Shown here: one piece after another, positions 7,427 to 27,576 of the stretch | Layout: each line of letters opens with the position of its first letter | Numbering within the stretch: the stretch's first letter is position 1 | Position numbers and translations under genes: made by a program | The notes under the pieces: generated by a model | Told to the model about the DNA's origin: nothing | The model's input: only the letters and a program-made list of their open reading frames with translations | Databases searched by the model: none | Origin: a virus | Length of the DNA stretch: 27,890 bases | IMG/VR virus record: IMGVR_UViG_3300031603_000023 | Span: 1 to 27,890 of that record | Reading direction: 5' to 3' (one strand)

Positions 7427-9261
7427 TATGATTCTCTTATATTTGTAATATGATCTCTGTTCATTGTTGCATATGTTGTCTCTTCCGACTCCCTAACGAT
7501 CCCGACATTGACAGACGAAAGTTTGTTCTTGTCCAATACATCCGAATAGTAATTACCATTTCGATCCAGCCAGCCACCCCGAATCAGGGGTATTTCATTT
7601 TTGGCCAATACAATGTCCCCATTTATATCCAATTGTGAATTCACAAATGAATTGAAAGTTTGAAACTGTAAAATTTCGTTTATTTTCATGTCGTTGGTCA
7701 GGACCCCAGCCTCCGAAAGGGTTTCGTATCTTGTAAGGAGTTGCGTCCGCTGGGTCTCTGTCAATGAAACTGAATACTTGACCGTTTCACCACTCATCAA
7801 ATTTCTGAGTTCCGTTTCAATTAATTCCGAAATGAAATGAAAACTCACAGAATCTATCCCCTCAATGGTTTCCAATATTGCAATTAGGTCTGACTTGGGG
7901 AGAAAATCTTTCCTCTTAAATTTACTAAAATATTCCGATAAATTTGAGACTATTTTCTCATATATGACATCTTTGCTATAGCCTTCCCAGACAGAAAGAT
8001 TTATGTTAATTCCATATTTCTTGAATGTTGGTTCCACAAATGAAACTACCGTACTGACAATCTTTTGTCCCGATTCCTCTAATAAGGTTTGTACTTTCCA
8101 TTTTTCAATGTCACTTAATTTGAAATATTCTACGGGAATTGTAAAATAATTTTCCCCGGCACGAAACCTTGTGTTAATATCCGGAATCAATAATAAATAT
8201 ATAACATTGTCAATCCAGGGATCAAATTCATTGTACTCTGTATATGCATTGATATAACTGAACAATTGAAACTTTTCAAAGAAGTGAACATAGTTTGTGG
8301 GATTGGCCAATACATAGGATCTGCTCGTTTTGGGTGCCAACAACCTTGTCAGATATGTAGACTCCGGATCACTACCAAAATTGATTTGGTTTGAAATGCC
8401 AATATTAAATATCTCGTTTAGATTTATTTCATTGCCATCAATATCATAGCCTGCGTCCACAAATTCAAACTGAACACCCTCAACCTCTCGGATATTCCCT
8501 GTAAGTCCAGCCGTTATTAAATACTGAACTTCAATTATGTTACCACTTTCTGGTATCTTTCCAAAGTTACTATTTCCGAAAAATACATCAACTCCGCCTG
8601 TGATTCCAGTCTTAACCAAGTAGCCTTCTGCGTCTAATGGGATGTCCAATAGACTATCATATTTCTTCCACTTCTTACCATTTACATAGACATTGACGAA
8701 CCAATTATCGATCATTGTACCCGTGGGCACTGCCACAGGAAATGATTGCAGCGAAGCGCCTGTGCCAGTGAACGTTTGATTTTCTATGGTGCCTTGTAAG
8801 ATTTTAAAAAATGTTCGTTCTCTGTTCCCATATAAATCAACCTTGATTTCATCCTGACCAAACGCAATTACATATTCTAAGCCATTGTCCTTGCACTTCA
8901 TAACATTATAATTTGGTATGATAACGTGCGTGCCTGTCATCTTTGGAATGACTCCGTTATATGACAAATAAAGATCCCCATTAGCTGCTACAGCGCGGGT
9001 GACATCATGGCCAGCAAGTTGCGCCAACCCTCTGATTGAGTCCGGACGGCTGGCAGTATTGATATTCAGTTCCGTCTGTGCATCCTCAATATAAAATAGT
9101 ATCATCTGTGATAGCCTTCCCAAGACCATCTGAATTTGTCCCCAGGGACTTGACACTTGATATAATTGTTTAGCCTGCTTATATACATCTTGAGTATATG
9201 TGCTAATATCCTCTAATATTTCTTCGGCCTTGATGCGACCAAGTTTGAATAATTCTTTCAT
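7426..9261 (-). CDS. gp6: Baseplate wedge protein, gp6-like (BaseplateJ family)
   Basis: A 611-residue protein close to the length of T4 gp6 (about 660). The N-terminal 90 residues are helical (KAEEILEDISTYTQDVYKQA), followed by NINTASRPDSIRGLAQLAGH, a typical BaseplateJ/gp6 opening in which the chain commits to the wedge dimer. A beta-rich middle (GTGASLQSFPVAVPTGT; VYVNGKKWKKYDSLLD) and GLTGNIREVEGVQFEFVDAG match the J-like domain. A late alpha/beta segment (NINLSVWEGYSKDVIYEKIV; LIAILETIEGIDSVSFHF) is also typical. It follows the gp25-like gene with a three-base gap, the usual order of sheath-initiator then wedge gene. There is no clear ribosome-binding site before its ATG, so coupling with the gp25-like gene is likely. 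Confidence 0.82.
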   Translation of the reverse strand: MKELFKLGRIKAEEILEDISTYTQDVYKQAKQLYQVSSPWGQIQMVLGRLSQMILFYIEDAQTELNINTASRPDSIRGLAQLAGHDVTRAVAANGDLYLSYNGVIPKMTGTHVIIPNYNVMKCKDNGLEYVIAFGQDEIKVDLYGNRERTFFKILQGTIENQTFTGTGASLQSFPVAVPTGTMIDNWFVNVYVNGKKWKKYDSLLDIPLDAEGYLVKTGITGGVDVFFGNSNFGKIPESGNIIEVQYLITAGLTGNIREVEGVQFEFVDAGYDIDGNEINLNEIFNIGISNQINFGSDPESTYLTRLLAPKTSRSYVLANPTNYVHFFEKFQLFSYINAYTEYNEFDPWIDNVIYLLLIPDINTRFRAGENYFTIPVEYFKLSDIEKWKVQTLLEESGQKIVSTVVSFVEPTFKKYGININLSVWEGYSKDVIYEKIVSNLSEYFSKFKRKDFLPKSDLIAILETIEGIDSVSFHFISELIETELRNLMSGETVKYSVSLTETQRTQLLTRYETLSEAGVLTNDMKINEILQFQTFNSFVNSQLDINGDIVLAKNEIPLIRGGWLDRNGNYYSDVLDKNKLSSVNVGIVRESEETTYATMNRDHITNIRES

Positions 9262-9264
9262 TTT

Positions 9265-9624
9265 TTATAATTGTATATTAATTTGTGGATCTCCCTGGAG
9301 TGTTATGTATAGGTATCCCACATCCCGGAGTCCGTCTGTTTTTATCTGAACGCTACAATCAATATCAAAATCTCCTGCTTCCGGAATATATTTAGCGACC
9401 TGAGCCTGAAATTTTTCCCTGACAGCTCCCTCATTCAACCCGAAGTCAAATAAATGTTGTTCTAAGCTCATACCGAATTCTGGTTCCCCAAGAACATCCC
9501 CTCGATTGGTATACAAAATCATTCGTATTTTTGAAAGGACTGCCTCAAGTTTTCCCGTTTCGTCCATTTTCGAACGAGAATATTTCGGGTCAGATGGATC
9601 TCGAAAATATAGCTCTCTTAGCAT
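9265..9624 (-). CDS. gp25: Baseplate wedge / sheath-initiator protein, gp25-like (GPW/gp25 family)
   Basis: A 119-residue protein, near the family length (T4 gp25 about 130). Residues about 26-60 contain LEAVLSKIRMILYTNRGDVL followed by GEPEFGMSLEQHLFDF. This fits the family signature of a helix, Arg-Gly, then a PEFG motif and a C-terminal Leu-Phe-Asp segment. In contractile systems gp25-type proteins join the wedge to the first sheath ring. A later ATG at residue 20 exists, but the upstream SDPKYSRSK segment aligns with the family's usual N-terminus, so I keep the first ATG. It starts seven bases after the stop of the 237-aa membrane protein and has no strong ribosome-binding site. Confidence 0.88.
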   Translation of the reverse strand: MLRELYFRDPSDPKYSRSKMDETGKLEAVLSKIRMILYTNRGDVLGEPEFGMSLEQHLFDFGLNEGAVREKFQAQVAKYIPEAGDFDIDCSVQIKTDGLRDVGYLYITLQGDPQINIQL

Positions 9625-9631
9625 TGTATTA

Positions 9632-10345
9632 TTATGTTATGTTTCTTGCTGACTTATCACTAAAGGTGAAATCCGCATCCGTGGGACTCGGTGGAATCCA
9701 TTTTATTTTCTTGTGTTTTTTCTTGAGTGTTGCTATTATCATCTGTAACACATTCTTGCCACCAATTGTAAATATCCCGACAGCAAATGTCGCCAACAGA
9801 CCCTGCCAATTATCAATTGACCAGTTCTGTTTAACCATTACCTCTGTTAGTATCTTGACAAACGGAATTAGGAGTAGGGTAAATGATAGCATATCCCACC
9901 ACGACTCTATAACCTTCCCAGTCAATTCGGCAATTTTACTAAATAAATGCTGAACTGATTTGAATGTCTTTGCCAGGTTATCCAGGATTCCGGACCAATT
10001 TTTGTCATTTGAAATAAGTCTTTGCCTGAAGTGTGCTATGGATGTTTTTTTCTCTCCCATTATCATCGATAATGTGGCCACTGTCGCAAAGATTACATTT
10101 TGGGGAGTAAGATCCACCACCACAGTAGAATTTGCAATAAGGTTCTCTACCAGTGGAAATAGAATTGGTATTACCAATCCAAATGTCGTGACAAATTTGA
10201 AATGATTTTTGAACTCAGTAACACTCTTCTTAAAAATACTCTTAAATTTAGCTATGTCAAGACCTTCATATAATTCATATATGTATTCCTCTGTAATAAT
10301 AGTCGGTTCTGGTGTTTCGTATTCAAGCACATTGAAATATTTCAT
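9632..10345 (-). CDS. Polytopic membrane-like protein with CTS-like N-terminus
   Basis: A 237-residue protein beginning MKYFNVLEYETPEP. Four hydrophobic stretches are visible, at about 51-71, 82-97, 149-170 and 182-206. A charged amphipathic region lies between the pairs and a Lys-rich tail follows (LKKKHKKIKW). The first eight residues end in V-L-E and match the pattern at the start of the 205-aa and 327-aa proteins. A membrane-active protein inside a tail operon could be a holin, an inner-membrane channel or an ejected protein. The holin idea is weak because the size and four segments are unusual and no endolysin lies nearby. The gene follows a 36-base AT-rich gap after the AAA+ regulator. 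Confidence 0.72.
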   Translation of the reverse strand: MKYFNVLEYETPEPTIITEEYIYELYEGLDIAKFKSIFKKSVTEFKNHFKFVTTFGLVIPILFPLVENLIANSTVVVDLTPQNVIFATVATLSMIMGEKKTSIAHFRQRLISNDKNWSGILDNLAKTFKSVQHLFSKIAELTGKVIESWWDMLSFTLLLIPFVKILTEVMVKQNWSIDNWQGLLATFAVGIFTIGGKNVLQMIIATLKKKHKKIKWIPPSPTDADFTFSDKSARNIT

Positions 10346-10381: not shown

Positions 10382-11446
10382 TTAAAAATTTGGGACAATC
10401 TTTTTATTCTTGATTTCAATGTCGTACCTCTCGAGCTTACTCCTTAGTGAATCCACTGAAATACTCAAATATCTGGCCGTCTTAGCTTTGTTGTTGCTCG
10501 TTAGTTTCAACGTCTTCAATAATAAATCCTTCACAATATCATCATATCCTATCCCCATGTCCGGAATCTCTAATATATATTCTCCCTCAGAAAGATTGAG
10601 GGGAGGTGGCCCTGGGTCTGCATCAGGATCAATTTCAATGGGAACATCTGTGAGAAATCGTAACGAAGCTGAAGTAATTTCTTGACCATGTTTTCCGGCA
10701 ACACTTTGTTGACGAATAATAACTGCCCGTTCTATTGCGTTTCTCATTTCCCTGAGATTTCCGGGCCAGGGGTGTTCCTCGAGAATGAGAACAGCATTTG
10801 CACTGATAATGTCAGTACGAAATACAATTCTTCTGCGATATCTGACATTGAATTCACGGAGAAAATTTCTGGCGTATCGTATAATATCAAATCCACGATC
10901 CCGGAGAGGTGGCAACAATATTATCCCATTCCTCAACGCATAATAAAAATCTTCTCTAAATAATCCTATATTTGCCATAGATCTCAGATCTCGTGTGGTG
11001 GACGCCATTATCCGAACATCCACAGACACTAAGTCGGCTCCCCCTACCCGATACATTTTCTTGGTCTGGAGTAATCTTAAGACCTTACTTTGAAATTCCA
11101 GGGGTAAAAGATCTAAATTTTCAATGAGAACTGTCCCTCCAGAAGCTTGTTCAAAGATTCCAGATCGAACCTTGCCTCCAATTTCACTTCCAAACAGGTC
11201 AGCCTCCGATATATTGTATGGTTCCGGGCGGCAATGTGCGATCAGAAACGGAGCAGATGAACGAGGGGAAATATTATGCATATACCGTCCATAGAACTTT
11301 TTTCCTGTTCCAATTTCCCCTGTCAATAACACCATTGCATTAACATCTGTCATATAGTGAGCCATCTCTATTGCATATTTCATTACTTCTGTTTTGCCAA
11401 TCATGTTATCACGATACCCATCCGCCGTCATTATTGGATATGTCAT
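10382..11446 (-). CDS. Sigma-54 enhancer-binding-protein-like AAA+ regulator lacking GAFTGA
   Basis: A 354-residue protein with the NtrC-type AAA+ core (about 15-265) and a Fis-type helix-turn-helix at about 318-341 (KAKTARYLSISVDSLRSKLE). There is no receiver or GAF domain. Walker A is intact (GEIGTGKK, 43-50). DLFGSE at 83-88 corresponds to the family ELFGHE, but only IGGKV separates it from RSGIFEQASGGTVLIE. The family has about ten residues there containing GAFTGA, the loop that contacts sigma-54. The Walker B position reads IEN instead of LDE. Sensor I reads STTRDL, and FREDFYYAL lacks the second arginine of FREDLYYRL. PWPGNLREM (sensor II) is kept. It is therefore probably a DNA-binding AAA+ regulator that does not use sigma-54 in the standard way. 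GGAGGAG precedes the ATG. Confidence 0.88.
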   Translation of the reverse strand: MTYPIMTADGYRDNMIGKTEVMKYAIEMAHYMTDVNAMVLLTGEIGTGKKFYGRYMHNISPRSSAPFLIAHCRPEPYNISEADLFGSEIGGKVRSGIFEQASGGTVLIENLDLLPLEFQSKVLRLLQTKKMYRVGGADLVSVDVRIMASTTRDLRSMANIGLFREDFYYALRNGIILLPPLRDRGFDIIRYARNFLREFNVRYRRRIVFRTDIISANAVLILEEHPWPGNLREMRNAIERAVIIRQQSVAGKHGQEITSASLRFLTDVPIEIDPDADPGPPPLNLSEGEYILEIPDMGIGYDDIVKDLLLKTLKLTSNNKAKTARYLSISVDSLRSKLERYDIEIKNKKIVPNF

Positions 11447-11667
11447 TACACTCCTCCATTATTCAATAAATATTTTGCGTTTCCACTATTATATATCTTA
11501 TTATATCCTCTACTGCTCATAATTTCATTTTCTGTTTTGGTCAAATCAAAGCCCTCTCGGACTAATTTATGCTTCATGTATTTCTGTCTTGATTCCCGTA
11601 CCCCATTGACCACCCATGAATAGCCGGATGCCGTGTTCCCAATAAATTTAAATCCGTTCGATTTCAA
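11446..11667 (-). pseudogene. C-terminal fragment of a repeat-type (Vsr-like) phage endonuclease
   Basis: A 73-codon frame starting only at a TTG with no proper ribosome-binding site. GFKFIGNTASGYSWVV, then SRQKYMKHKL, TENEIMSSRGYNKIYNSG and AKYLL match, from memory, the C-terminal module of large phage proteins that carry YGVENP repeats, a zinc finger and a Vsr-like nuclease core (usually GFKxIGET..NYxY, SRQKFQKHKL, TExEIMxxxGYxKIWDCG). The N-terminal part of the same family lies immediately upstream in another frame (11648-12421). This is therefore the remnant tail of one broken gene. Its last codons (GGA GGA GTG TAA) double as the ribosome-binding site of the AAA+ regulator, which may explain why this end is retained. 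Confidence 0.65.
11451..11457 (-). promoter_or_regulatory. Strong ribosome-binding site of the AAA+ regulator
   Basis: GGAGGAG on the minus strand, four bases before the ATG at 11444-11446. It is the best Shine-Dalgarno match I see in the window. It lies inside the last codons of the endonuclease remnant, whose TAA overlaps the ATG by one base. Confidence 0.65.
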
Positions 11668-12421
11668 CTCCCAAACTTTTTACAAAATTACTAAGATCCT
11701 TTTCGCCCCCCAATTCCTGTGTATCAATTGGATTACAATGAGTGCATAATTCAACTTTCGACACGACCATTCTCTGGCGTAAAAAATCACGGGATTGAGT
11801 AAATTCCTGGTTGCAGGTGGGACACTGTAATGTGAATATTTGACCATTGGTATGTGAAATAAATAGATATCCTAAGACTTTAAAATCCTCTATGATCTTG
11901 AGTCTATTTCGTAAATTAAATAACTTACTTTCCAATCTTGCAGCCTCTGTCTTTGCAGGATGATCCGCACCATATTTTTCTATCCAAACTTTTCGTATTT
12001 TTAATTTTATATCCTCAGACTGGCCAATATATTCCACGTCATATCGATCAAGATTTGTAGCCACCATTTTATTCATAATTGACGTTGATTGGAGGGGATG
12101 TTTCACTCCGTATCGTTCCAAATTGGTGTCATATGTCCTGTTCCGTATTTCCTGGCATTGTTGGGGATTTTCAACTCCGTAATTTTTTAGGGTAGTTTGA
12201 CGACTCTTATTGCGACATTCCTCAGATTGAAATGTATACTCAACTCCGTAATTTTTTAGTGTCGTTTGTACCTTTTTATCTTTTATGGAAGCCGATTGGC
12301 TGGGATTTTCAACTCCGTAATTTTTTAGGGTGGTTTGACGTTTTTTATCTTTTATAGAGGGGGACTGGCTGGGATTTTCAACTCCGTAATTTCTCGAACT
12401 TGTCTTTGAAGAAACAAACAA
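11648..12421 (-). pseudogene. N-terminal fragment of a YGVENP-repeat phage endonuclease
   Basis: A 257-codon frame from a TTG (12421). The frame is open further up to 12472 with an in-frame ATT at 12457 and an AAGGAC at 12469-12474, so the native start may have been there. Seven 23-residue repeats of the type TTLKNYGVENPSQSxSIKDK are followed by a zinc-ribbon-like CPTC...CTHC pair. The opening of a Vsr-like domain (ELGGEKDLSNFVKSLGVEI) follows, and then the frame stops. In the related proteins I know, the catalytic PD-(D/E)xK core comes exactly here. Here about 150-250 residues are missing and the C-terminal module resumes in another frame at 11667. Both pieces look like one mobile endonuclease gene broken by internal deletion plus frameshift. 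Confidence 0.7.
11950..12400 (-). repeat. Seven in-frame 69-base repeats (YGVENP type)
   Basis: The Tyr-Gly-Val codons recur at exactly 69-base spacing (anchor bases near 11967, 12036, 12105, 12174, 12243, 12312 and 12381). Each unit encodes 23 residues with consensus T-x-x-K/E-x-Y-G-V-x-x-P-x-Q-S. The three rightmost units (N-terminal in the protein) are nearly identical at DNA level, sharing AACTCCGTAATTTTTTAG, while those further left diverge. This suggests repeat growth at the N-terminus. They are coding repeats of the broken endonuclease gene. Confidence 0.8.
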
Positions 12422-12487: not shown

Positions 12488-13225
12488 TTAATGGTATTGC
12501 AGAAACCAATCTACCGTATTTTCTGAATCTATTCTCTCCAGAATCCAATCAACTTCTTCTTTGCCCTCATCCCGTATCATATCTGCATTAATTGGAACTC
12601 CTCCGGGCATTGGAAATGGATATGTGCTCAGCATTCTGCCCAATGCGATCTTTGCCTTACCAGTTATATACTTCAAGAAATATGGATCCCCGAATAAATC
12701 TTCCAATGGTATTTTAACTAAAGCCTCGATATACAGATCAAACTTTGGATCTCTACCCTTAACAGTCAATCTCTTCGTATTTATATTGAAATCGTATGCA
12801 ATTTGTTCCAAGAAGAAAGCCTTTGCAAGATCAAAATACTGATATTGAGCGGTTCTCATTACAAGGTCATCCCCATGGAAAGAACTCAGGAATATCTCGG
12901 AGGCCATCAGGCGATCCTCGGCAAAATCTCTATCAATATTTCCCAAACGACCAACGCCGTTAATTTCCTGGAATTTCACAACAGATATCACACAATCAGG
13001 CAAATCCAATCTTCTACTTGCTTTAAATTGTGCATTATTTATTGACGCCTTGGTCACCACATACTTAGTGCTTTCCACGGCCGGACCATATTCCCTGTAG
13101 AAAAATTCCGCCTCATTTTGGATCAATCTTTTAATTTCAGGTTCCTCCAGCACCACAGGCAAACTCCCGGACGCCGTCATCTCTCTCTGAACATTTTCTA
13201 TGAAATCCGCTTCTGACATTGACAT
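12488..13225 (-). CDS. Phage structural protein, possible neck / head-tail connector
   Basis: A 245-residue soluble protein starting MSMSEADFIENVQREMTASG, with an alternative ATG two codons later. Features are an N-terminal helix, SLPVVLEEPEIKRLIQNEAE, a middle beta section with LDLPDCVISVVKFQEINGVG, and the segment FLSSFHGDDLVMRTAQYQYF. A C-terminal PMPGGVPINADMIRDEGKEE helix and an acidic tail follow. I have a memory of similar proteins in T4-like environmental phages annotated as neck proteins, but I cannot verify it, so the call is tentative. It ends just upstream of the endonuclease remnant. It begins 11 bases after the stop of the 327-aa gene, with only a weak ribosome-binding site. Confidence 0.65.
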   Translation of the reverse strand: MSMSEADFIENVQREMTASGSLPVVLEEPEIKRLIQNEAEFFYREYGPAVESTKYVVTKASINNAQFKASRRLDLPDCVISVVKFQEINGVGRLGNIDRDFAEDRLMASEIFLSSFHGDDLVMRTAQYQYFDLAKAFFLEQIAYDFNINTKRLTVKGRDPKFDLYIEALVKIPLEDLFGDPYFLKYITGKAKIALGRMLSTYPFPMPGGVPINADMIRDEGKEEVDWILERIDSENTVDWFLQYH

Positions 13226-15605: not shown

Positions 15606-16820
15606 TTATCCGTTTTCGTTTTTACTTACTTCTGGCAGTTGCTCCACAAATCTCGTGAAGATCTTATTGTTGTCAACATCCACCTCCGTTATCTCTATTT
15701 GTAGTTTCATTCCCATAGCAGGAACAAAGCCTTCCGGATATTCTTTGTTGTGAAAAAGTCCAATAAACGAATTTTCATTTAATCTGAACTTGACAAAACT
15801 TCCAATTTCTCGAATTCCTACAATTTCACATTCCTGTATGGTATCCTCACAGGCATCTCTGAAATCTTCAAATGTGGTCACAACCGAGCAGCCCTTATTC
15901 TCCGATAAAATAATTCTATTATTTTTGGCCACCTCTTTAACATAGAACGAAATCTCCTCTCCGGATTGAAAATAGACGAAGTTTTCTTTGGTCTCGGGTG
16001 TCATTTCCGACACATGGATAAGACCCGTGAAAATTTCATCGAATTCCACAAAAATTCCAAACTTTGAAACCCCTGTGATCGTTCCCGTATACTTCTCGTC
16101 ATGTGCCAATAGATGTATTTTTTCTTCTAATATGTGACGGATATATTTCTTATTCGATACTATAAAAGTATCTCCTGCGTAAATATAGTCCTCAAACATA
16201 ACAAAGATATCTGTGCCGATCAAATCATCAAAATTTGATATCTTGTTAGCACTTGCCAAACTCCCTGGTATGAACGTTTCCAGGCCATCAATACTCGCAA
16301 TAAACCCACCCGCATTCTTATCAATCACTCGGGCCGTATATACTTTGTCCGCGTTCCTTGCCTGCAGTAAAAATTCTTGTTTCTTGTCATTCAAAAATGA
16401 ATGAAGTAAACTGACATTTATAATGTGATCCTCTATTTCAACAAATAGTGTACTTTCGTTTGATTTGAACCATTCATTCCCGTCATCTCTTAGCCATTCC
16501 TGCAATTCTTTCGTGGTGTCAAATTTCACCCCCCGCATTTCAAAAAACAGTCTTTCCTTCTTGATGCTAATGCTAAATTCAATTCCGTTGTCACACAATA
16601 CATCAAAATATGTGTTCCCTACGTCCCTAATCCCTATTACTTTCAATACATCACCATCCGATACATCTTTTTTGACGAATCCATAATTCATCCAATTGTC
16701 CATTGCGTGGGGTTGTTCAAATGTGAAGTCATCTTGATCCATTATATCAACGAGATCCGAGACTGTGTTTGCTTTGTAAAGCGTTCCCAAAATTTCAACT
16801 TCGACGTTAATTGCGTCCAT
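15606..16820 (-). CDS. S1-domain RNA-binding protein (ribosomal protein bS1-like)
   Basis: A 404-residue protein. At least one canonical S1 OB-fold is clear at about 242-308 (EKYTGTITGVSKFGIFVEFD, then GLIHVSEM and SFYVKEVAKNNRIILSE). A second S1 repeat at 157-228 (KVYTARVIDKNAGGFIASID, GLETFIPGSLA) resembles the ribosome-binding type repeats of bS1. A more divergent third lies at 328-392 (ECEIVGIREIGSFVKF). The first 150 residues are not clearly assigned, though 55-90 could be another OB-fold. The likely role is to bind mRNA, or to bias or replace host S1 in translation. It is the first gene after the promoter-like motif at 16871-16887, with AGGT eight bases before its ATG, and it is followed directly by the amidoligase gene. 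Confidence 0.85.
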   Translation of the reverse strand: MDAINVEVEILGTLYKANTVSDLVDIMDQDDFTFEQPHAMDNWMNYGFVKKDVSDGDVLKVIGIRDVGNTYFDVLCDNGIEFSISIKKERLFFEMRGVKFDTTKELQEWLRDDGNEWFKSNESTLFVEIEDHIINVSLLHSFLNDKKQEFLLQARNADKVYTARVIDKNAGGFIASIDGLETFIPGSLASANKISNFDDLIGTDIFVMFEDYIYAGDTFIVSNKKYIRHILEEKIHLLAHDEKYTGTITGVSKFGIFVEFDEIFTGLIHVSEMTPETKENFVYFQSGEEISFYVKEVAKNNRIILSENKGCSVVTTFEDFRDACEDTIQECEIVGIREIGSFVKFRLNENSFIGLFHNKEYPEGFVPAMGMKLQIEITEVDVDNNKIFTRFVEQLPEVSKNENG

Positions 16821-16870: not shown

Positions 16871-16887
16871 TTCCGTAGTTATATATA
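16871..16887 (-). promoter_or_regulatory. Promoter-like motif TATATATAACTACGGAA (copy 1)
   Basis: On the minus strand this 17-base string lies in the 76-base gap after the gp5-like gene, about 50 bases before the S1-gene ATG. The same 17 bases occur at 27533-27549 before the 364-aa gene. TATATATA resembles the T4-like late promoter core TATAAATA, and ACTACGGAA would be an extra conserved part. I infer a phage promoter for the leftward operon; no start site has been measured. Confidence 0.55.
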
Positions 16888-16896
16888 TCATTTATT

Positions 16897-17652
16897 TTAA
16901 TCTGCAATTTTCACAATTGCACTGCAAGCCATTGCCTCACCCGCATCAACCAATCCTTTGGCCACGCCGGGGGTTGGAGGAACTTTCGAATCTATCATTG
17001 TTCCTAAGGTTCCTAATAACTGAAAAAGCATGTCACATTTTGTTGCCGGGTGTGAGGCTCCATTACCGATTTTACAGACAGGGGCGTCCATATAATGCTG
17101 CGTATCCGAGAACTGTGTCGTTACTCCCTCTATCATTGTCATCTTACTTGAGCCGCCTTTATGTTCTAAGGTTATGTGCTTAGCCGGATCAATTGTCAGA
17201 TGAGAATCATCAAAAAACACTCGAAGTCCTCCATCTTTTGTATATAGTACCTTTACTTTTTCATCAGAATCCCATAACAGAACCTGGGCATTTTCATAAT
17301 TGTTTCCAACTGACAATTCCTCACGCATTTCCATATTTAAATTTTCTATGACAAAAAACTCAGGAGAATATATATCCCCGGACTCAAAGGTTACCCTCAC
17401 GATTGAAGATTTCTTTGGGCAGCTAAATGATCCGGCACCAAAGTTGCCTCCTCCTCCAAAAATTGTACTCTGGGCCGGAGACGCCCATGGCAATACGTCA
17501 TCATCTAATTCGTCAAACTTTTCGAATACTCGAATTTTAGCCCGGCCTAATTTTTCGGGGTCATTAATATCCACAATTTCCCCCAACCAAACAGTACCAA
17601 CGAGGTCTTCATTTATCACTTTATTTGTAAGATAATTATTGTAATTAGTCAT
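16897..17652 (-). CDS. gp5: Baseplate hub/spike protein, gp5-like OB-fold, without lysozyme
   Basis: A 251-residue protein. Residues about 17-105 form a gp5/gpV-type OB-fold (GTVWLGEIVDINDPEKLGRA, then KIRVFEKFDEL, LPWASPAQ, SIVRVTFESGD, SPEFFVIENLN). A beta-strand-rich stretch at about 120-195 (VLLWDSDEKVKVLYTKDGGL, HLTIDPAKHITLEHKGG) fits the start of a triple-stranded beta-helix needle. The C-terminus (CKIGNGASHPATKCDMLFQL and on) is helical with no lysozyme domain and no PAAR-like tip. The T4 gp5 lysozyme is therefore absent from this protein. The ATG overlaps the previous stop by eight bases, indicating coupled translation. It is the last gene before the promoter-like motif. Confidence 0.82.
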   Translation of the reverse strand: MTNYNNYLTNKVINEDLVGTVWLGEIVDINDPEKLGRAKIRVFEKFDELDDDVLPWASPAQSTIFGGGGNFGAGSFSCPKKSSIVRVTFESGDIYSPEFFVIENLNMEMREELSVGNNYENAQVLLWDSDEKVKVLYTKDGGLRVFFDDSHLTIDPAKHITLEHKGGSSKMTMIEGVTTQFSDTQHYMDAPVCKIGNGASHPATKCDMLFQLLGTLGTMIDSKVPPTPGVAKGLVDAGEAMACSAIVKIAD

Positions 17653-20002
17653 GTATGTTCTTAGGAGTTATTTTTTCATCTATTTTTAATATGTCAAATC
17701 CAACTTGATCCACGGCCCTTGACGGTTCATATCCTGATAAATCAACTTGATCCACGGCCCTTGACGGTTCATATCCTGATAAATCAACTTGATCCACGGC
17801 CCTTGACGGTTCATATCCTGATAAATCAACTTGATCCACGGCCCTTGACGGTTCATATCCTGATAAATCAACTTGATCTACACCTTTAGACGGTTCATAT
17901 CCTGATAAATCAACTTGATCTACACCTTTAGACGGTTCATATCCTGATAAATTAACTTGATCCACACCTTTAGACGGTTCATATCCTGATAAATTAACTT
18001 GATCCACACCTTTAGACGGTTCATATCCTGTCAAATTGACCTGGTCCACACCCTTAACCAGTTCATATGTTGTTAATTTATAATGGTCAATTTTTCCGGA
18101 TGGTGTATAACTTATAGCATTTGTATGTATATTACTTCCGAGGCCTCCTCTACTGATACTGAAATCGTTTTTAGGCGTTGCGTTTTTCCAGTTTCCTGAC
18201 GGACTCTTGCTATTATCAGCAAGAGGATTTTCTCCAATTTTTGCTCGGCGAATATAATTGGCCATCATTTCCTGGTCCTGTAAATGTTTTGTCCATGAGG
18301 CGCCGGCGGCGGATGACCTGGAAATTGTCACCGGAAGTCCACTCCCCGAAGCATGAATTATTTTGGCCCCAAATATATTTTTAAAATTGTTAGGATCAAT
18401 AGGAGGCTTGGTGTAATTTTTACTCTTGTTTTTACCTGTCAATTCATCTTTAATTGCAATACCATATGTGATTAAATCACTTGGATCTGTCAAGTCTAAC
18501 CCTCCGGGATTATAGGGACTTGAAGAAATGTCCATCATTTTTTTCTTCCACGCTTTCTCGGCCTCTGCCAAATAATTCTTTCCAGTTGCCGCTCCCACAA
18601 CACGACTGATATCATTAATGACATCCATGTTTTCTCCAACGATGTCCGGGCCCATACCATATGTCCAGCGTTCCCATTTTGCCGCCATTGTGTCCATAAA
18701 ACCCTTACCAAAAGAGTCGACACTTTTTTTTGCTTCCATTTCGGCATAGGTATCTTGAAGTGTCCCACTTGATGATCCCGGAAAATGCAAAGCTCCGTAA
18801 TTATGTTTCTGTGAGGAATATTTTGATAAGGGCTCTGTACTTTCATCTGGGACCGCACTATGTATCTTTAAATCATCCAATACCCAATTGAAAAAGCCAT
18901 ACTGATTAATCTCATATGCATCTCCGACGTTAATTTTGAACCTCATTGTTGCCGGAGTTGAGACATCCGCATTTGACACGGTTTCAATCCACGGACTGGC
19001 CCCAAATTCAAATTCACAATCCAAACAACGAATGACATGATAGCTTATATCATTCTCTAAATGTTGTATCTCTAAATCCCCCGACACGTTGGTGAAAGGA
19101 GTGCCGGCCCCCTGATTAGGATCATCTGTAAATGCAGAGAAGAAATCATCCACGGCCTTGACACCTGTTGTAGAATCTTTTGATCCTCCATAATATGCAT
19201 CGTCATTTGTCTCCTCAGACTTACCAGCTTGTTTTTCTTCATTCTCTGCTGCAATTCTTTCTGCTTCTGCATTGGTCTGTGTGTTTCCTGCCGCATCATC
19301 TTCACTATATGTTGATTGATCTTCAGGAGGGCCATGTTGTTCACTGGCTTCTCCGGTCTGTGGATCTGTACTCGTAGAATCTGCAGTTTGAGCAATTGGC
19401 TCAGTGAGATCCCAACTACGAAGATTTCGTATTTCCGCTACAATTATATCAACATTAAATCTCCTCTTCTCTACTGGCAACAGATTCCGTTTCCAGACCA
19501 TATCATAGGTTCCCTTCTTGTGTAGATCGGCAAGGAAAGACATTCGCATGTCCATCGATTCCAGACATTCAAACTCCAATACAGACTCGTGTGCCCGAAT
19601 ATTTTTTCCATCTTTCAGGGGTTCCATCAAGGACGCCAGCCCAGAAATTGACTGTATATACCAAGATTTTCGGGTCTGTAAATCCGATAGAACATGATTA
19701 AATTCTTTGATAAATATTGACTCCTGCTGATGCCCAGTCCTTACTAAATAATTTGCAGCCGAATCAATGTCATCAGGTGGCAATAAAAGTCCACACATTG
19801 AAGATGCAGGATCTATAAATCCTCTACCGACTCGGGGTTCATACATTCTGTTAAACCAAAACCTAACCGTAAATCCCATGAATGTTGGGTCTCCCCAGCC
19901 ATCGTCAACAAGATCTCTAAAATTTTGTCCATCACTATTTACTCGACGATTCTGGCCCATACCTAAAAAACCGCGAACTATTCTGTCCTGAGTGTTATTC
20001 AT
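17645..20002 (-). CDS. Large tail-tube/baseplate initiator-like protein with C-terminal repeats
   Basis: A 785-residue protein. Residues about 110-200 (SWYIQSISGLASLMEPLKDG, FECLESMDMRMSFLADLHKK, FNVDIIVAEIRNLR) resemble a tail-tube-type fold as in tube-initiator proteins such as T4 gp48/gp54. The assignment is by pattern and context and is tentative. An acidic low-complexity linker spans about 203-280 (Gln/Glu/Ser/Thr/Asp). Residues 320-480 resume beta-rich structure (HVIRCLDCEFEFG, FKINVGDAYEINQYGFFNW). The final part, about 642-767, is a 14-residue tandem repeat (VDQVDLSGYEPSKG). It lies between the gp27/gpD-like hub gene, which it overlaps by eight bases, and the gp5-like gene. At roughly twice the size of the T4 counterparts it looks expanded by insertions. 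Confidence 0.68.
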   Translation of the reverse strand: MNNTQDRIVRGFLGMGQNRRVNSDGQNFRDLVDDGWGDPTFMGFTVRFWFNRMYEPRVGRGFIDPASSMCGLLLPPDDIDSAANYLVRTGHQQESIFIKEFNHVLSDLQTRKSWYIQSISGLASLMEPLKDGKNIRAHESVLEFECLESMDMRMSFLADLHKKGTYDMVWKRNLLPVEKRRFNVDIIVAEIRNLRSWDLTEPIAQTADSTSTDPQTGEASEQHGPPEDQSTYSEDDAAGNTQTNAEAERIAAENEEKQAGKSEETNDDAYYGGSKDSTTGVKAVDDFFSAFTDDPNQGAGTPFTNVSGDLEIQHLENDISYHVIRCLDCEFEFGASPWIETVSNADVSTPATMRFKINVGDAYEINQYGFFNWVLDDLKIHSAVPDESTEPLSKYSSQKHNYGALHFPGSSSGTLQDTYAEMEAKKSVDSFGKGFMDTMAAKWERWTYGMGPDIVGENMDVINDISRVVGAATGKNYLAEAEKAWKKKMMDISSSPYNPGGLDLTDPSDLITYGIAIKDELTGKNKSKNYTKPPIDPNNFKNIFGAKIIHASGSGLPVTISRSSAAGASWTKHLQDQEMMANYIRRAKIGENPLADNSKSPSGNWKNATPKNDFSISRGGLGSNIHTNAISYTPSGKIDHYKLTTYELVKGVDQVNLTGYEPSKGVDQVNLSGYEPSKGVDQVNLSGYEPSKGVDQVDLSGYEPSKGVDQVDLSGYEPSRAVDQVDLSGYEPSRAVDQVDLSGYEPSRAVDQVDLSGYEPSRAVDQVGFDILKIDEKITPKNIHD
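17701..18078 (-). repeat. Tandem array, 9 units x 42 bases, in-frame
   Basis: Units begin at 17701 and every 42 bases after, nine in all, with no spacers, each encoding 14 residues of consensus VDQVDLSGYEPS[KR][GA]. Units 1-4 (17701-17868, the C-terminal end of the protein) are identical in DNA. Units 5 and 6 are identical to each other. Units 7 and 8 differ slightly and unit 9 is the most diverged. The gradient points to recent expansion from the C-terminal side. Confidence 0.9.
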
Positions 20003-27422: not shown

Positions 27423-27576
27423 CGTTTTCTTCCTTCTAAAAATTTAACATTAAATTTGTAATTTATGTTGTATTTTTGTTAAATTTCATTAAATATTGTT
27501 AAAATTTTATATAAATTAATATTGTTATGGGTTTCCGTAGTTATATATACAATATAAAAAATGAACCCAAAAAAAT
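27423..27576. promoter_or_regulatory. Divergent control region between leftward operon and rightward gene
   Basis: A 154-base, very AT-rich gap between two divergent genes. It holds the minus-strand motif TATATATAACTACGGAA (27533-27549) and a ~110-base leader to the leftward ATG with AT repeats. On the plus strand a TTGTTA box 16 bases from TATATAC could drive the rightward gene; this is only a possible sigma-70-like fit. Confidence 0.5.
27533..27549 (-). promoter_or_regulatory. Promoter-like motif TATATATAACTACGGAA (copy 2)
   Basis: Identical 17 bases to copy 1 at 16871-16887, on the same strand, about 110 bases before the 364-aa gene that begins the leftward operon. Two exact copies in two of the few real gaps make a shared promoter likely. 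The bidirectional position here leaves open that it also serves the rightward gene. Confidence 0.55.

Follow-up and report, generated by a model that had tools for sequence, protein, structure and literature searches.

A phage-encoded NtrC-type AAA+ protein that lacks the sigma-54 contact loop and key catalytic residues

We analyzed a 27,890-base stretch of viral DNA (the window; IMG/VR record IMGVR_UViG_3300031603_000023) in which an open reading frame (ORF) on the minus strand, at positions 10382-11446, encodes a 354-aa protein resembling the bacterial enhancer-binding proteins (EBPs). The protein consists of an NtrC-type AAA+ domain, a lid, and a Fis-type helix-turn-helix (HTH) without a sensory domain. 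What is new is a phage EBP without the sigma-54 contact loop, the catalytic Glu, the switch Asn, and the second arginine finger. In our best explanation, to which we give about an even chance, it would bind DNA as a regulator that is locked with ATP, cannot hydrolyze it, and does not depend on sigma-54, comparable to VpsR and R. capsulatus NtrC. What we observed directly, and what this reading builds on, is the fold, the loss of the motifs, the fact that an orthologue shares these losses, and purifying selection. The gene and its product have the following features.

10382..11446, minus strand: EBP-like protein of 354 aa, with AAA+ (about residues 14-181), lid (182-249), linker (250-304), and Fis HTH (305-345)
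11451..11457, minus strand: Shine-Dalgarno sequence GGAGGAG, 4 nt 5' of the EBP-like gene's ATG (sequence read directly)
10424..10531, minus strand: Fis-type HTH, residues 306-341 (HTH_8; modelled helices 301-315, 320-326, and 331-340)

An earlier note on this DNA had recognized an NtrC-type AAA+ core and a Fis HTH, and Pfam confirmed both: Sigma54_activat (PF00158; 1.5e-37), AAA_lid_14 (PF25601; 6.6e-13), and HTH_8 (3.4e-6) all exceeded the Pfam cutoffs. Pfam detected no further domain in the protein, and thus no REC, GAF, PAS, or ACT sensory domain, and the AAA+ domain starts at about residue 14. Among PHROG profiles, phrog_7998 matched residues 14-247 (E 1e-21). The ATG of the gene overlaps the stop codon of the preceding ORF (TAATG). 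An AlphaFold2 model of the whole protein, based on a 43-sequence alignment, reached a pLDDT of 87, with most of the AAA+ core above 90, a well-defined HTH, and a poorly modelled linker at residues 270-300. The best match among solved structures was NtrC1 (Z 28.1; rmsd of 1.8 over 246 residues), followed by FlrC, NtrX, FleQ, PspF, and VpsR (Z 25 for VpsR). The structural matches included trap-type mutants, namely, PspF E108Q with ATP (4qnr), an NtrC1 Walker-B mutant (3m0e), and PspF R168A (2bjv). None of the 50 best matches in the BFVD viral library was EBP-like; all were other AAA+ proteins, with 10 to 16% identity.

The loop and the nucleotide-contact residues map to the following positions.

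11171..11188, minus strand: shortened L1, SEIGGK, residues 87-92; GAFTGA gone; modelled as a tight beta hairpin (strands 87-89 and 92-94)
11297..11320, minus strand: Walker A, GEIGTGKK, residues 43-50; intact in the alignment, with K49
11234..11236, minus strand: switch-Asn position (PspF N64), aligned with His71
11117..11131, minus strand: Walker B, VLIEN, residues 106-110; relative to the norm hhhhDE, D107 is E109 and catalytic E108 is N110
10934..10960, minus strand: arginine-finger segment FREDFYYAL, residues 163-171; R162-type finger kept as R164, R168-type finger position A170

An alignment to E. coli PspF, NtrC, and ZraR showed DLFGSEIGG-----KVRSGIFEQ to be exactly five residues shorter than its counterparts, which bears out the earlier estimate of about five missing residues and no GAFTGA. 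A displaced but intact GAFTGA-like loop was looked for in the same alignment and was not found. Judging from this alignment, the sigma-54 contact loop is truly absent from the phage protein. In TyrR of E. coli, which also has an HTH and no GAFTGA, L1 is shortened at the same place, by seven residues in the same alignment. Unlike the phage protein, TyrR has the Walker-B DE, the switch Asn, both fingers, and a long N-terminal sensory region. Loop loss alone therefore does not imply a dead ATPase, because TyrR keeps its catalytic residues without the loop.

The readings of Walker-B DE as EN and of FREDLYYRL as FREDFYYAL, with Ala170 in place of the second arginine finger, likewise held. Two losses came in addition to those listed in the note: the switch Asn (His71) and the sensor-I Asn (N149), which is Thr151 in the phage protein. 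The loop deletion and the losses at D107/E108, N64, N149, and R168 were read against PspF, NtrC, ZraR, TyrR, and about 170 EBP domains. Walker-B variants sometimes retain activity, and the D107 position is still acidic (E109). A normal ATP-driven machine is nevertheless unlikely, because the catalytic Glu, the switch Asn, and the R168-type finger are lost as well. Relative to PspF, NtrC, and NtrC1, the phage protein shares the AAA+ fold, lid, Fis HTH, Walker A, R162-type finger, and sensor II (with PspF also the two-domain layout) but has no GAFTGA, an L1 shorter by five residues, EN, a His at the switch position, and no R168-type finger.

One phage orthologue with the same short loop, of the kind that the earlier note had suggested searching for, was found. 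It is a syntenic protein (P0002) with 63% identity to the window protein, encoded by contig L002 (IMGVR_UViG_3300035698_018609). Chance or sequencing error as the source of the motif losses was ruled out, since this independent orthologue has the short L1, EN, H71, and T151 in common with the window protein. The second arginine finger position is Ala in the window protein and Met in the orthologue; Walker A K49, the first finger R164, and sensor-II R232 are kept in both. The EBP-like genes of both phages have an open frame and a ribosome-binding site, and the orthologue also matches HTH_8 (5.8e-6). The dN/dS ratio was about 0.16 at a dS of about 1.6, where synonymous sites are near saturation; neighboring genes had ratios of 0.03 to 0.21. 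The gene is intact and under purifying selection, and we take this ratio to mean that it is maintained. From the pair comparison and dN/dS, the odd Walker-B and L1 residues are held and the arginine-finger position is free. Identity across the pair was 46% in the HTH, which is among the fastest-changing parts, versus 76 to 77% in the AAA+ core.

Among EBP domains fetched by pattern, the Walker-B DE was kept in 90 out of 90 bacterial domains and 78 out of 80 viral hits; of the two viral exceptions, one was the orthologue from L002 and the other (L247) a gene of bacterial type at the edge of a prophage. Outside the phage pair, none of the about 90 bacterial and 80 viral EBP domains combined these losses, although both sets had been selected for similarity and conserved peptide patterns, which under-samples degenerate EBPs, so that the comparison shows rarity and not absence. 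Searches with P0001 alone against viral contigs and with P0001 and P0002 against viral and genome contigs returned only L002 or nothing. A degenerate DNA pattern for GGTxxIEN gave 102 matches in viral contigs, and L002 was the sole true relative among the 80 loci listed. A protein search of Lak phages and uncultured phages of 460 to 735 kb gave no homologue; PF00158 matches there were weak and fell in other, mostly larger, AAA+ ORFs. The best tblastn matches in the "phages" collection were mostly bacterial contigs labelled as phage.

In a tree of 157 core domains, the stem branch of the pair was 2.1 changes per site long. The tree grouped the pair with GAFTGA-less NtrX-type proteins (SH-aLRT, 84), which may be long-branch attraction; the pair is not placeable by this tree, which therefore does not identify a bacterial source. 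L247 was considered as a second degenerate viral EBP and was rejected as a bacterial-type gene beside a prophage edge. Its product (L247 1-1287) is a bacterial protein, which we call VpsR-like, that lacks GAFTGA, the Walker-B Glu, and both arginine fingers. By sequence, decay of this kind took place independently in that bacterial protein, affecting different residues.

The minus strand of the window carries a tail and baseplate cassette encoding adaptor, gp25-like, gp6-like, and baseplate hub-type proteins. The nearest named records for the gp6-like protein were a 462-kb uncultured phage (39%) and Prevotella Lak phages (about 33%), and the source is a giant-phage-like virus. The EBP-like gene has these neighbors.

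12488..13225, minus strand: head-tail adaptor Ad2-like protein, left border of the insertion junction
11446..12421, minus strand: remnant of a DUF7487 homing-endonuclease-type gene (257 aa, plus 73 aa in another frame), directly upstream of the EBP-like gene
9632..10345, minus strand: 237-aa lineage-specific protein with no assigned function, co-occurring with the EBP-like gene in both phages (232-237 aa)
9265..9624, minus strand: gp25-like baseplate wedge protein, right border of the insertion junction

The suggestion that the gene is kept inside a tail operon did not survive this comparison: the gene, known from two phages, does not belong to the core of the tail operon but is an accessory one inserted between those for the adaptor and gp25. 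In most cassette relatives, the adaptor and gp25 genes are adjacent or near each other. In the window and L002, the EBP-like gene, the 232- to 237-aa protein, and DUF7487-type sequence lie between them, with further insertions at the L002 junction. The DUF7487 counterpart in L002 is a single 613-aa ORF (L002 3300-5141), compared to which the window copy is split and shortened, its middle, nuclease-like part being gone. Other relatives have DUF7487-type genes at this junction, and the next closest one, L119, has DUF7487-type and GIY-YIG genes (3-980 and 1747-2616). For genes of the homing-endonuclease type (DUF7487 and GIY-YIG), the junction between adaptor and gp25 is a hotspot. No EBP was found in 50 related records, an absence that is provisional because the records are fragments; three of the 50 had PF00158 matches, all of them weak (16 to 20 bits; 24 to 25 with neighbors in frame). 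Elsewhere in the cassette, an S1 RNA-binding-domain protein is encoded at 15606-16820, as it is at the same place in most relatives. The C terminus of a 785-aa ORF for a baseplate-region protein (17645-18000) has about nine tandem copies of the peptide repeat GYEPS[KR][GA]VDQV[ND]LS, the copy number of which may vary between phages.

Motifs near 16871 and 27533 had been put forward as binding sites of the protein. They are exact copies of a 17-mer, TATATATAACTACGGAA, that occurs twice in the window (16871-16887 and 27533-27549, minus strand; 0.14 expected), both times upstream of structural-region genes. This proposal was not supported, and we rejected the motifs as EBP sites: they are nonpalindromic and of the TATATATA type, the complete motif does not occur in the searched stretch of the contig with the orthologue (L016), and ATATATA cores precede one and the same S1-domain gene both there and in relatives that have no EBP-like protein. 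On these grounds, the 17-mer fits a promoter element better than an EBP site. No binding site for the EBP-like protein was found, and the window had no excess of sigma-54 -24/-12 sites, matches being at chance level.

In PspF, E108 is the gamma-phosphate sensor and touches the switch Asn, by which L1/L2 is held; the trans finger is R168 (R299 in NtrC1) (PMC7175178). Given these roles, losses at E108, the switch Asn, R168, and L1 fit one story, that of a protein without a power stroke. The sequence suggests that the phage protein is probably an ATP-bound DNA-binding protein and not a motor. We propose that a bacterial NtrC/PspF-type EBP gave rise to a phage-borne descendant that would have lost sigma-54 interaction and ATP hydrolysis while retaining the nucleotide-binding fold and the DNA-binding HTH. 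Such a protein would bind ATP without turnover, oligomerize in the ATP-bound state via its AAA+ platform, contact DNA through the Fis HTH, and repress or activate non-sigma-54 promoters of phage or host by occupancy. Because there is no sensory domain, control would be mainly through its own expression level.

Published EBPs without GAFTGA work at sigma-70 promoters: NtrC of R. capsulatus, a sigma-70 regulator, needs ATP binding but not hydrolysis, and VpsR, also with sigma-70, needs no ATP (PMC10274813). As in the phage protein, a deletion in L1 removes GAFTGA from the R. capsulatus and Caulobacter NtrC proteins, for both of which sigma-70 regulation has been published. Unlike the phage protein, they have REC domains, and Caulobacter NtrC needs its Walker A and B residues, whereas the phage protein has no intact Walker B. 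VpsR is, like the phage protein, a degenerate EBP, but it has an N-terminal receiver-like domain, is not phage encoded, and has independent losses with different residues. Weighing against a DNA-binding regulator, no binding site was found, and the low identity of the HTH relative to that of the core fits conserved DNA targets poorly. The fast-changing HTH leaves room for a decoy or a nontranscriptional role.

In the first of these, a dead protomer would join host EBPs or occupy their enhancers as a dominant-negative decoy, blocking sigma-54-dependent host genes during infection. We regard this as unlikely. The changes do resemble the EBP-trapping mutants matched by the model (PspF E108Q, NtrC1 Walker-B, and PspF R168A), the AAA+ core is the best conserved part and the HTH far less so, and a sensory domain is lacking. 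However, the identity of the phage protein to bacterial and other viral EBPs is only about 26 to 36%, so that mixed rings are not obvious, and a gene among late structural genes would come late for host takeover. It is similarly doubtful that a permanently ATP-locked, sigma-54-blind viral ring poisons or occludes host regulatory circuits, as a natural version of the engineered Walker-B/arginine-finger trap mutants.

A use of the AAA+ fold outside transcription, e.g., as a DNA-coating, assembly, or virion-associated protein, is rather improbable. Such a use would suit the position between adaptor and baseplate genes and a core more conserved than the HTH, but the HTH is recognizable in both orthologues and has high confidence in the model, and relatives build the same tail cassette without the gene. 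We find it distinctly improbable that the protein still hydrolyzes ATP by displaced chemistry and regulates sigma-70 promoters in the manner of TyrR or Caulobacter NtrC. In favor of this, the protein keeps Walker A, an acidic residue where PspF has D107, R164, and R232, but both orthologues have Asn in place of the catalytic Glu, the R168-type finger is gone and its position varies freely, and Caulobacter NtrC requires its Walker-B residue (PMC10274813). Finally, a functionless, decaying bacterial EBP captured at a homing-endonuclease hotspot is very unlikely, for although the gene is limited to two phages, the junction has DUF7487-type and GIY-YIG genes in relatives, and the window has a broken DUF7487 gene, both phages have open frames and ribosome-binding sites, dN/dS is about 0.16 (at near-saturated dS), and the degenerate residues E109, N110, H71, and T151 are conserved and not drifting.

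Degenerate EBPs are already known in bacteria, and phage EBPs, most of them with an intact GAFTGA-like loop, are present in PHROG 7998 and dozens of IMG/VR contigs. No published account of phage-encoded EBPs was found in the literature searched. Members of PHROG 7998 and other phage EBPs (MT121960.1 and many of L228 to L283) have an NtrC-type AAA+ domain, as does the window protein, but most of them, unlike it, keep G[AS][FY][TS]GA, DE, and both fingers; many are 237 to 273 aa long and show no evident HTH, and the two inspected are encoded near replication-type genes. The bacterial EBP machine is thus present in phages in apparently functional and in disarmed form, and a maintained disarmed phage EBP is a natural test of how an NtrC-type AAA+ protein can be used without sigma-54 and hydrolysis.

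Human gut phage MT121960.1 (L202) encodes a 304-aa EBP (7842-8756) with GAFTGA intact, adjoining primase- and helicase-like genes; its best PHROG match is 7998, a family without known function. Many phage contigs (L228, L237 to L240, L242, L243, L248 to L261, L263, L265 to L269, and L272 to L283) encode stand-alone NtrC-type AAA+ proteins of roughly 216 to 273 aa, with G[AS][FY][TS]GA, DE, and both fingers intact and with no sensory domain or evident HTH. Their sequences make them possible sigma-54 activators that are widespread in phages. In L251, the stand-alone AAA+ gene lies among replication-type genes.
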